From Pseudobutyrivibrio sp. OR37 (lineage in GTDB: Bacteria > Bacillota > Clostridia > Lachnospirales > Lachnospiraceae), in contig NZ_FOQF01000011.1 in assembly GCF_900113655.1 (NCBI RefSeq), forward strand, positions 1 through 64,000: a DNA stretch of 64,000 bases. The letters are read 5' to 3'. The notes under the pieces were generated by a model, which searched no databases, was not told the DNA's origin, and saw nothing but the letters and a program-made list of their open reading frames with translations. Both the position numbers and the translations under genes were made by a program. Numbering within the stretch: position 1 is the first letter of the stretch; each line of letters starts with the position of its first letter. Below, piece by piece: positions 6,777 through 9,991 of this stretch.

Positions 6777-8432
6777 TTAATACTTGTTTGAAATCAACTG
6801 AATCAGCTCATTAGCCGTATACTTTCCAACTAAATCAACAAATTCATTTTCTTCTATATCTTCTATTAAAGACATTACTTCTTCATCAGGGATATTTTTA
6901 GTGTAATCGGTTGGCTTAACTGTGGCAATAAGAGAGTTCTCTTCTGCCTCATTGTCCTCATCAGCTGTATTATCATAATCATAGGATAAGCAATATATTC
7001 TTTCAAGTTTATTCTTTTTTATAGAATAATAGAGAGTTTGGTTTGTATAGTAATCTGAACCACTTTCTTCATCATGCAGCTTTATCCAATTATTTTTTGG
7101 CGAATACTGATAAGGCTCTTCACCAGTAACATAATAGTCTAACTCAATTGCAATAGGAGTAACCAAGCCATCCTTGAACGTGTATATGTTTATGCTTCCT
7201 GTTGCATTTTTTATCAGCTCTGGGATATCGTCACCGTCAATATAGGCTAGTGCATAGGTTTCACCATAATCGGAGCCTTCTACTTTTAGGAACTGTTTGT
7301 AGGCCTCCTGCCAATTATGGTTTGCTTTTCTTTCGGTGCCAATAATAGCTTCTTTTACAGTATCTATTGTGAGATTATCCGCTAATTCATTACTAAGTGA
7401 AAATGATAAATCACTAGATGTAAATAGACCATAGGTATCATCATATTTCTTCTCAGTTGTAAATATTATTGTTTTTAATATGGAATGGTTATCATATCCA
7501 ATGGCAATTAAATCATTCACGCCATCACAGTTCAAATCGCAAACTTCAATATGGGTGATTTTTCTAATATCAATGATATCATCATCCTCTGAAGCGTATA
7601 GATTAACAAAATCCACCAACTGATTATCACCGATAATGGCAATCCTTGCAGAGTTACCATCGTCAAAATGAGCATCATCACTTTGATAGGTAACTAACCT
7701 GGCATCTGCTGAAAGCTGTGGAATATCAACATCAAATGTAAGCTTCTTATCATTTCCAACTTCCCACATGTTTACGCTTAACTTAACTACATAGCCATTT
7801 TCAGTCTTTACCAAAACCATTTTCTTATTAGGTTCTGTAATATCTCTTTTGTCACTAGCGACCTCTAACACATAGGTGTCTTTTAATTTCACTCCGGAAA
7901 CGCAGGTGCATGGTTTATACTGTAAATAATCTAATTCCTTATAATAAAAATCCTTATCTTTATTATAGACCCACAGGAGGTCATCTTTTAAATCGATGCT
8001 AGTGCCTGTGTGCTTATATATATAATCTTTTATACTAGCTCCTGAAATGGCTATCAGCTCATAATCCAGTGAATTATAAGATCTATCATCATCTAAATAG
8101 AATTTTTTATCCTTTTTTGTTATCTTCTCCCTTGGAATTCCAGCCCCATCGGCTAACACTTCATTCCAATCTATGTCCTTTGGCTTATCAAATGTTACTC
8201 GGTAAAAGCCGTTATATTCATCTGAATCCAAAAGCTCTGTAAATTCCTTGCACTCATCCCATGACAAATCAACAGCATCCTTGGAAGCCTCTATTTCATC
8301 TGCATCGACAGTTCTTTTTAAGGCCTCTTGATATAGAGCTTCCTTACTGTATTTCTCATATGCTTCTTTTCCATAATAAGCTCCACCAATCGCCAGCAGG
8401 CCAACCAGAAGCACTACTATTAGTTTTTTCAT
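6777..8432 (-). CDS. Membrane-anchored extracytoplasmic protein with FG-GAP-like calcium loops
   Basis: I chose the ATG at 8432, 19 codons inside the longest frame, because it begins with a signal-anchor (MKKLIVVLLVGLLAIGGAYYG) and an upstream AAAGGGA SD. The roughly 551-residue product is acidic and extracytoplasmic. Two D-x-N/D-x-D-G-like loops, CDLNCDGVNDLIAIGYDN (near 305) and AYIDGDDIPELI (near 405), resemble FG-GAP/VCBS or dockerin-like calcium sites. They are followed by strand-rich sequence. No enzymatic motif was found. A promoter lies at 8499-8526. It is first in a unit with mutS2 and MBOAT. The function is unknown. Confidence 0.7.
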   Translation of the reverse strand: MKKLIVVLLVGLLAIGGAYYGKEAYEKYSKEALYQEALKRTVDADEIEASKDAVDLSWDECKEFTELLDSDEYNGFYRVTFDKPKDIDWNEVLADGAGIPREKITKKDKKFYLDDDRSYNSLDYELIAISGASIKDYIYKHTGTSIDLKDDLLWVYNKDKDFYYKELDYLQYKPCTCVSGVKLKDTYVLEVASDKRDITEPNKKMVLVKTENGYVVKLSVNMWEVGNDKKLTFDVDIPQLSADARLVTYQSDDAHFDDGNSARIAIIGDNQLVDFVNLYASEDDDIIDIRKITHIEVCDLNCDGVNDLIAIGYDNHSILKTIIFTTEKKYDDTYGLFTSSDLSFSLSNELADNLTIDTVKEAIIGTERKANHNWQEAYKQFLKVEGSDYGETYALAYIDGDDIPELIKNATGSINIYTFKDGLVTPIAIELDYYVTGEEPYQYSPKNNWIKLHDEESGSDYYTNQTLYYSIKKNKLERIYCLSYDYDNTADEDNEAEENSLIATVKPTDYTKNIPDEEVMSLIEDIEENEFVDLVGKYTANELIQLISNKY

Positions 8433-8498
8433 TTTATTTTTATTCCCTTTATCTATAGGCCACGTAAGCCTTTCGAATCTTTCTATCAATCCTTTATA

Positions 8499-8604: not shown

Positions 8605-8926
8605 ACTACTATCTGCGATACTTTTTTCTATCTAGGCAGTAGTCATTCTCATTTTGTTTACTACCTACGATGTGTTTTTGCCTTCAGATAGTAGTCAACA
8701 TTCATAGCTTTACTATCTATAATAATTTTTTCGCTATAGATAGTAATTAGAAGCCATTGCATTACTATCTGCGAGATATTTTTCTCTGTAGGTAGTAATT
8801 GATAGCTGATTCTTTACTACCTATATTCTCTTTTTCTTTTCAGATAGTAATCTCATTAAAATTGATTACTATCTATAAATTATTTTCTGACACAGGTAGT
8901 AGCCAGGTCAAAAAACACTACTATCT
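8605..8926. repeat. Array of 13 alternately inverted 7-bp motifs at exact 26-bp pitch (52-bp units)
   Basis: ACTATCT or ACTACCT starts at 8608, 8660, 8712, 8764, 8816, 8868 and 8920. Its inverse AGATAGT, AGGTAGT or AGGCAGT starts at 8634, 8686, 8738, 8790, 8842 and 8894. Every step is exactly 26 bp with strict alternation of orientation. The 19-bp gaps are diverged in sequence but never change length. The gap inside each inverted pair carries a central T4-T6 run on the plus strand; the other gap does not. Each pair can form a hairpin with a 7-12 bp stem, for instance a 12-bp match in the third unit. A period of 52 is not a multiple of three, and no ORF runs through. The array lies between divergent promoters. 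It is not a CRISPR array: motifs are too short and alternate in direction. Confidence 0.9.
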
Positions 8927-9020: not shown

Positions 9021-9031
9021 GAGCAGCGGAT

Positions 9032-9148
9032 GGTATTCGAAAGAAACTATACCCTTTAATTTCTAAGTTTTAAAATAGTAGAACCCGCACGGCATGCTCG
9101 TATCATTTTGAACGAGACTGTATCACCCCCATAAAGGAGGTGTTGCCA
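9032..9148 (+). promoter_or_regulatory. Structured leader of the pantothenate operon with SD-masking hairpin
   Basis: Three small inverted repeats follow the promoter. They are GGTAT/ATACC (9032-9053), CTCGT/ACGAG (9097-9116) and CACCCCC-ataaa-GGAGGTG (9124-9142). The last pairs six of seven bases and contains the whole SD AAAGGAGGTG of the first gene. Translation control by opening this hairpin is plausible. I could not match the leader with confidence to the known pan RNA motif. Confidence 0.45.
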
Positions 9149-9991
9149 ATGAAGGTTGGATTTATAGGCGCTGGAAAGGTGGGCTGTTCCTTAGGAAAGC
9201 TTTTTGCCGAGACCCAGCATAATCTCACAGGCTATTATAGCCGTTCTTCATCATCTGCGGAATCTGCAGCTGAATTTACCAACTCAACATATTTTCAAAA
9301 TTTAGAAGACTTAATTCAAGATAGTGATACAGTGTTTATCACCGTTCCTGACGACGCTATTACTGCGGTTTGGGAGCAGCTTAAACACATGTCAATTGCT
9401 GGAAAAATGATATGTCATTGCAGCGGTTCTTTATCTTCAGAAATCTTTAGGGATATAAAAGAAACTGGCGCTTACGGTTTCTCGGTCCATCCATTACTGG
9501 CGGTATCAGATAGATACATTTCATACCAGGAGCTTCCAAAGGCTTTATTTACAATCGAAGGAGATGCAAATCACATAGGTGATATTGAAGCATTGCTTAC
9601 GGCAAGCGATTTGCAATCTGCTCGTATAAGCGCAGATGTAAAAACCAGATATCACGGTGCAGCTGTACTTTGTTCAAACCTAGTTGTGGCCCTTATTCAG
9701 GCTGCGGAGGATGAACTTCGTATATGCGGATTTTCAGAGGAACAGTTGGCTGATGCCATCGCACCACTTTTATTAGGCAATGTGAACAAGGTTCTTTCTG
9801 TAGGAACTAAGGCGGCTTTGACAGGTCCAATTGAACGAAATGATGTTGGAACCGTTAAAAAGCATTTAGACACCTTTGAAGGAATTGATAGGGAAATCTA
9901 CAGGGTTCTTTCAAAAAAGACCTGTGAGATTGCAAAGGATAAGCATCCTTCCGTAAACTATGAAGCTTTGGAGCAATTATTAAACTCGTAA
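9149..9991 (+). CDS. Rossmann-fold and DUF2520 protein, probable PanG-type ketopantoate reductase
   Basis: ATG 9149 is chosen because AAAGGAGG (9133-9140) ends 8 nt before it; the longer frame's GTG overlaps that SD. The roughly 280-residue protein opens with the NAD(P)-binding motif KVGFIGAGKVGCSLGKLF. It has VFITVPDDAI and HCSGSL at the end of the Rossmann domain, a FSVHPLLAV link, and then an alpha-helical DUF2520 domain with RYHGAAVLCSNLVVALIQAAE. DUF2520 proteins in pan operons are credited with the ketopantoate reductase step as an alternative to PanE (PanG in Francisella). It lies directly before panB, panC and panD, with no panE in the window. The family is certain; the reaction is inferred from context. 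Confidence 0.8.
   Translation: MKVGFIGAGKVGCSLGKLFAETQHNLTGYYSRSSSSAESAAEFTNSTYFQNLEDLIQDSDTVFITVPDDAITAVWEQLKHMSIAGKMICHCSGSLSSEIFRDIKETGAYGFSVHPLLAVSDRYISYQELPKALFTIEGDANHIGDIEALLTASDLQSARISADVKTRYHGAAVLCSNLVVALIQAAEDELRICGFSEEQLADAIAPLLLGNVNKVLSVGTKAALTGPIERNDVGTVKKHLDTFEGIDREIYRVLSKKTCEIAKDKHPSVNYEALEQLLNS

Follow-up and report, generated by a model that had tools for sequence, protein, structure and literature searches.

The array of short, alternately inverted motifs at 8607-8926 of the window (the whole stretch of 64,000 nucleotides from Pseudobutyrivibrio sp. OR37 analysed here) is probably a gene-less member of a class of duplex-DNA site arrays, each type of which is owned by one protein of a single family. 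This family, called P0001 after its reference member, consists of proteins of about 265 aa with a predicted C-terminal PD-(D/E)XK, homing-endonuclease-like domain, and the arrays are found chiefly just 5' of their genes. The arrays share a layout of alternating arms, their arms are spaced in whole turns of the helix, and their arm sequences vary with the N-terminal domain of the associated protein. The array class is so far unnamed, and the protein family is common yet uncatalogued.

The array in the window and arrays with the same arm

The features of the window are listed by position and strand.

6777..8432, minus strand: neighbouring gene, 551 aa from an ATG at 8432 (570 aa from a TTG at 8489), divergent from the right-hand gene
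8607..8926, no strand: alternating-arm array of 13 arms, TACTAYCT (>) or AGRTAGTA (<), with a step of 26 bp and a same-direction step of 52 bp
8608..8640, plus strand: unit 1 (> <), < arm imperfect (AGGCAGT), one mismatch
8660..8692, plus strand: unit 2 (> <), gap with a T-run
8712..8744, plus strand: unit 3 (> <), gap with a T-run
8764..8796, plus strand: unit 4 (> <), gap with a T-run
8816..8848, plus strand: unit 5 (> <), gap with a T-run
8868..8900, plus strand: unit 6 (> <), gap with a T-run
8919..8926, plus strand: thirteenth arm (>), the unpaired end of the array
9027..9123, plus strand: pan motif RNA (RF01749), 37 bits (gathering score 36.2), a neighbour of the array lying 100 bp past it and outside it
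9149..9991, plus strand: first gene past the pan motif, which we take to be panE-like; it served to locate orthologous loci

The seven-letter arms start at 8608, 8634, 8660 and so on to 8920, every step being exactly 26 bp and the direction alternating strictly. Twelve of the 13 fit ACTAYCT or AGRTAGT, the exception being AGGCAGT at 8634 with its one mismatch. The array is given as 8607-8926 because the near-invariant arm is one base longer than seven letters (TACTAYCT). The pattern ACTAYCT-N19-AGRTAGT is matched exactly by five of the six inverted pairs and with one mismatch by the sixth. Allowing up to two mismatches, there are six matches in the window against 0.62 expected, a number reached in none of 100 shuffles. 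A motif-blind search for alternating chains of at least four arms found none in 1.5 Mb of shuffled sequence. The original observation of 13 alternating arms at an exact 26-bp step is confirmed by the arm starts and the shuffles, with the arm at 8634 imperfect. The protein of the gene at 6777..8432, scanned with one extra residue, had no match in Pfam.

The genome carries eight TACTAYCT arrays: two each on contigs C33 and C35, and one each on C15, C26 (the window), C48 and C58. Contig C51 has a single pair. A strict three-arm pattern is present in 11 of 29 genomes of the genus and its reversed control in none of the 29. Among the genome_contigs there were 53 stretches with this three-arm pattern, all titled Pseudobutyrivibrio (near relatives of the window's genome were possibly left out there), and among the viral_contigs the pattern had no match. 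The lone pair (L016, C51:1614-1647) lies directly 3' of a predicted transposase gene, presumably of IS3 type, near the contig start. Three of the arrays, L013 (C35:19749-20016), L014 (C35:34002-34270) and L017 (C58:174687-174980), adjoin RHS-like or WapI-immunity-like small-gene regions. The small genes are presumed to be RHS-like, and the WapI match is under the Pfam cut-off.

The eight bases of the arm hardly vary among these arrays, and the middle of the '> <' gap holds an A-run (a T-run on the opposite strand). That the run is central in '> <' gaps, with no comparably strong run in '< >' gaps, had been noticed in the window and holds for 311 and 262 distinct family pairs, respectively. Between fully matched neighbours, eight-base arm starts are 27 or 28 bp apart in '> <' pairs (218 and 58 of 280) and 25 bp apart in 222 of 241 '< >' pairs, with a recurrent exception at 14-15 bp (13 of 241), that is 10-11 bp shorter; these counts lean to certain lengths because the search pattern fixed some of the gaps. 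On the seven-letter count, the '> <' step in arrays other than the window's may be 26 or 27 bp, and the '< >' step is nearly always 26 bp or one helical turn less. Four arrays of P. xylanivorans DSM 14809 (L066, L067, L083 and L096) have one central '< >' gap that is one helical turn shorter, and the same shortened-gap spacing is seen in L075 and L095. The former four have common hairpin-like flanks outside the array, as if from a larger repeated element.

Arrays are present at four of 20 panE-like loci in the genus (L134, among the other 16, ends there), with the arm TACTAYCT in G000 and G004, TACCACTG in G006 and ACCACTAG in G011. Proximity to pan or mutS2, the generality of which was originally posed as a question, is therefore not a rule but peculiar to the window's locus, and arrays lie in many intergenic regions. 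A motif-blind scan of the examined loci found many further arm types, including arrays of different arms side by side. In a 382-kb sample of genome G003 there was one array site, already in the set, and three irregular chains; eight local shuffles gave one chain. At L019/L151 (G003:C1, about 219000-220000), a 37-arm TACTGCCT array directly adjoins a TACTAYCT array; the two may represent an older and a newer arm type sharing a site. The AT-rich alternating motifs TAAGTTAA and TTTAAGTG at L162:3055-3418 and L209:1157-1359 are possibly a degenerate array type; the L209 array is upstream of a P0001-family gene.

The P0001 proteins, their upstream arrays and the spacing of the arms

The gene for P0001 itself (263 aa) lies on C33, again in this genome, where it has a TACTAYCT array on either side and follows a comEC-like gene (Pfam Competence). 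The window array has no such gene, and its cognate is likely to be on C33. Relatives of P0001 are found in 28 of the 29 genus genomes, in 46 of 150 sampled Lachnospiraceae genomes and, with a family profile at E 1e-20, in 23 of 291 genomes of the class, its own genome being counted each time. Searches of Pfam and NCBIfam with 50 aligned members gave only isolated one-member matches near E 0.004-0.01.

A total of 149 loci were scanned: 70 from the genus, 29 from the family, 20 more from the genus, 28 from the class search and two further loci of this genome. They were returned or picked from the matches listed, a subset of all, and were chosen independently of arrays. Alternating arrays, each with its own arm, lie 5' of many of the genes and in a few cases also 3' (e.g. 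L100-L102, L338). At least five alternating arms were present within 500 bp upstream in 65 of 107 full-length members (near-duplicates removed, enough sequence available), leaving 42 members in which they were not, and in none of 535 shuffled upstream sequences. Downstream, arrays of at least five arms followed 4 of 111 genes, and proteins consisting of the nuclease domain only had one upstream in one case out of 10. At L210, L219, L224, L225 and L235 the gene starts within 40-460 bases of a contig end that truncates its upstream side. Assemblies thus seem to break in arrays, and the figure of 65 of 107 may be too low.

Ten members were identified in this genome at E 1e-15, none of them on the window's contig. 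Four have at least five upstream arms (C33, one on C48, C42 and C28), three have a four-arm chain (one on C55, C22 and C70) and three have three arms or fewer (the other on C55, C56 and a fragment on C48). The phage collection held three records with family matches, and the plasmid collection five, to the nuclease domain only, four of which are annotated as AAA ATPase. Carriage of the system by phages or plasmids was rejected on this near absence from both collections.

The residues E160, P190, D191, E206 and H207, with others, are invariant in 50 of 50 aligned members, and E160, D191, E206 and H207 are predicted to be the conserved acidic or catalytic-type residues of a PD-(D/E)XK / EDxHD nuclease core. 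An AlphaFold2 model of the C33 protein had a mean pLDDT of 92 and a pTM of 0.68. In Foldseek searches it matched a Bacillus phage Bobb homing endonuclease among viral predicted proteins (E 2.3e-5), DUF559 and DUF2726 proteins (E 0.004-0.03) and, among solved nucleases, Bax1 and MunI weakly (only E 0.03-0.05); the TM-scores of the nuclease matches were low, 0.19-0.36 over the query. The model of the N-domain (mean pLDDT 88) found no confident DNA-binding fold with Foldseek, only weak prefoldin-like and chemokine-like matches. An AP2/arm-type fold, guessed from its strand-strand-strand-helix order, was not confirmed by these searches.

Across 48 non-redundant loci, arm similarity correlated with identity over residues 30-115 (Mantel r 0.166, p 0.001) and over residues 1-30 (r 0.096, p 0.022); with the nuclease domain there was no correlation (r 0.039, p 0.23). 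The association with residues 30-115 was retained given the nuclease domain (partial Mantel r 0.171, p 0.001), and the nuclease domain given residues 30-115 showed none (r -0.057, p 0.88). It also persisted without the TACTAYCT/TACTGCCT group (41 loci, p 0.002). The correlation is small and confined to the N-terminal part of the protein. A DNA-binding partner, as first suggested for the window array, is in this way supported, but indirectly, by the association of arrays with the genes that they precede and by arm similarity tracking residues 30-115.

The distance between arms pointing in the same direction is about 5, 6, 7 or 8 helical turns, at 10.5 bp per turn. Over 84 upstream arrays, with steps of 12-60 bp allowed, same-direction distances peak at 52-53, 62-63, 74 and 85-86 bp (Rayleigh R 0.85 at 10.5 bp, phase 0.04). 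When one array of at least six arms was taken per protein cluster (<45% identity), the 28 arrays had distances of 52-54, 61-64, 73-75 and 83-85 bp with R 0.85 and phase 0.14, an R reached by none of 20,000 uniform draws; the 17 of these outside 50-55 bp gave R 0.84 alone, and the exact pitch is left unfixed because the score is almost as high for periods of 10 and 11 bp. The view that spacing is under selection and that same-direction sites share one face of the helix, put forward from the window's diverged gaps of constant length, is well supported by these 28 arrays.

Gene-less arrays and their turnover

Most of the TACTAYCT arrays seen in context (54 of 64) are gene-less. A resident gene carries the TACTAYCT arm in eight of the 11 genomes with TACTAYCT arrays (G000, G002, G003, G004, G005, G007, G011 and G027); in the other three (G006, G014 and G024) none was found among the loci examined. 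Genome G023, in which the TACTAYCT pattern has no match, has a P0001 relative that lies beside comEC as P0001 does, and its gene array is of the TACTGCCT type. The four further TACTGCCT sites in G023 are all more than 29 kb away from the genome's five family matches. In this one lineage, the changed arm is common to the gene-side and the gene-less arrays. Similarly, TTACCACTG occurs in G006 both at the gene of a P0001 paralog (L264, contig C89) and at the panE-like locus (L132, contig C11); more TACCACT arrays are present on C30 and at the opposite end of C89. G002 and G003 have TACTGCCT arrays, some adjoining TACTAYCT arrays, and no known TACTGCCT gene. The panE-like array of G011 (TTACCACTA) and its gene-side array (TTACCACTGGA) agree only in TTACCACT. 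An exact search of the window's genome with TTACAGTG, the arm of another resident gene whose array is imperfect, found nothing.

At the L057 locus there are 12 arms in G004, G024 and G011, one unit in G014 and a single arm in G006 and G000, and there is no target duplication. Classical insertion at an empty site was rejected here, as relatives with 1, 2 or 12 arms show no such duplication; growth or loss in place is the likelier course at this locus.

It is possible to see how these features might work together. The arm of 8-11 bp is most likely recognised by the N-terminal domain (about residues 30-115), and alternating arms, with those of the same direction whole helical turns apart, would allow numerous protein molecules to be arranged along one face of the helix. 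At the C-terminus, a PD-(D/E)XK, homing-endonuclease-like nuclease is predicted. The array just upstream probably controls its own gene and takes part in the turnover of the element, and the cognate protein may maintain, grow, shrink or copy the gene-less arrays, much as REP/BIME are linked to RAYT genes. Binding, cleavage, autoregulation and spreading are in each case what we infer from sequence and layout. A wider proposal, which is held only tentatively, is that the system may be an independent counterpart of REP/RAYT in Clostridia. Each member of a homing-endonuclease-like family would then recognise its own short arm, with its gene behind a helix-phased array of that arm, and would cause gene-less arrays to grow, spread and turn over across the chromosome, with fast diversification of specificity and several mutually distinct pairs per genome.

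The arrays might instead be operators or chromosome-organising sites, bound by a protein that regulates itself and its neighbours or shapes the nucleoid, with a nuclease fold that is not used on the arrays and the gene-less copies forming a regulon or insulator set. Sites in helical register would suit this, as would gene-side arrays, which often end 20-110 bp from the start codon, and the recurrence of arrays at the same panE-like locus in G000, G004, G006 and G011. However, catalytic-type residues that are invariant in all 50 aligned members argue against a nuclease fold with no use, and relatives with such different arm numbers at one locus are not readily accommodated. The gene neighbourhoods are also odd for operators: among the gene-less TACTAYCT arrays, 43 have a known neighbour on each side, and of these 32 are between co-directed genes, 10 between convergent genes and one between divergent genes (neighbours being mechanical ORFs, with orthologous copies counted separately). 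The sole divergent case is the window array. Taken together, this explanation is unlikely.

Other readings and comparison with known systems

That the array could be a string of hairpins in an RNA was raised when it was first described. In its fuller form, the arrays would lie in leader or trailer RNA, for instance as a repeat RNA that holds the nuclease in check by binding it, on the model of type III toxin-antitoxin systems. The arrays are mostly 5' of the gene, the last arm directly precedes the start-codon region in several cases, and the A-run is on the sense strand in seven of seven TACTAYCT gene-side arrays; the 32 co-directed gene-less arrays also lean to sense (22, with 10 opposite). 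Base pairing lends this no clear support. Counted over all units of the gene-side arrays and read on the sense strand, wobble pairs are about as frequent as A.C mismatches (81 against 72 cells in '> <' pairs, 72 against 67 in '< >' pairs), and at the variable position of TACTAYCT, in '> <' pairs with a 19-base gap, the counts are 42 and 37. Slightly in favour of an RNA, the interiors of 54 arrays of at least eight arms lean a little to wobble (84 against 63, two-sided p 0.10). With wobble and A.C counts so similar, the stems do not have the look of strong selection on RNA. Hairpins also give no reason for same-direction spacing in 10.5-bp turns. In Rfam no family covers the array; apart from chance matches, there were only the neighbouring pan motif and, in a relative, a tRNA. 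Hairpin RNA is disfavoured as the main reading by the wobble and mismatch counts and the helical quantisation, and is improbable.

More doubtful still is a role in defence, in which the nuclease would act against phages and be retained on host arrays, either to mark self or as a reserve, until infection sets it free. The nuclease domain does match the C-terminus of the PADLOC candidate system PDC-S68 (E 1.1e-24), and several members with different arms occur per genome, but the match is limited to that domain; the near absence from plasmid and phage collections is neutral, neither for nor against. That the arrays are simply REP/BIME repeats moved by a Y1 transposase (RAYT) is scarcely credible as membership, since Y1_Tnp (PF01797) has no match in this genome (the E. 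coli control being positive), the inverted arms are short (8-11 bp) and the linked protein resembles a PD-(D/E)XK nuclease, although the alternating, regularly spaced, extragenic and gene-associated layout is as described in PMC2817692, and the analogy stays.

The reading of the arrays as duplex-DNA sites, each type owned by a P0001-family protein, can be set against several known systems. A CRISPR array was rejected, as the gaps are related between units and between species and the linked gene has no cas family in Pfam or NCBIfam. In type III toxin-antitoxin systems such as ToxIN, a repeat array lies immediately upstream of a nuclease gene, each gene having its own repeat. The P0001 arrays are likewise directly 5' of a nuclease-like gene, each with its own repeat, but they alternate in direction, vary largely regardless of RNA pairing, follow the helix and have gene-less copies elsewhere. 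No ToxN/CptN/TenpN-type toxin was matched by the 50 members in Pfam or NCBIfam, and the fold is predicted to be PD-(D/E)XK-like. Arrays of the parS or iteron kind have many short sites in helical register, as here. The linked family is, however, no ParB or replication protein by Pfam, and the arm changes from paralog to paralog.

The protein family has its closest likeness in the PD-(D/E)XK and EDxHD families of homing endonucleases, both named in PMC6083498 (Vsr-like, DUF559 and DUF2726 proteins), with which it appears from modelling to share a nuclease fold with conserved acidic residues. The P0001 family differs in being chromosomal, with several paralogs per genome, many of which have a site array. 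In the part of the open-access literature covered, no description of such a pairing of helix-phased array and nuclease gene was found.

The closest overall parallel is REP/RAYT, which PMC2817692 and PMC8266576 present as extragenic alternating repeats with one gene family tied to its own repeat type, coevolution of the two and gene-less copies genome-wide. The P0001 arrays are similar in all four respects. Repeat type and gene coevolve and abundance follows the gene, with the exceptions of G002 and G003 (TACTGCCT) and of G006, G014 and G024 (TACTAYCT), where no gene was seen. Like BIMEs, the arrays are regularly spaced, alternating and extragenic, but they are not made of REP sequences. REP are 20-40 bp palindromes with a GTAG or CGTC tag at one end, as given in PMC3733652; here 8-11 bp arms surround a gap, and both tags are absent from several arms, e.g. 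ATGCATCC, TACCACTG and TTACAGTG. One REP lies on each side of its gene, whereas the arrays here are mostly 5' (65 of 107 upstream, 4 of 111 downstream) and their spacing is quantised in helical turns. RAYT are HUH tyrosine transposases and the P0001 proteins are PD-(D/E)XK-like; membership of the RAYT/REPtron group was rejected, with no Y1/HUH transposase match in this genome. If the proposed relationship is true, this would be a second, unrelated enzyme class that owns a dispersed repeat family in bacteria. As the arms change from gene to gene, they provide natural protein-target pairs for how a small domain reads DNA, and the system makes it possible to test directly what maintains the helical register of DNA sites across hundreds of bases.
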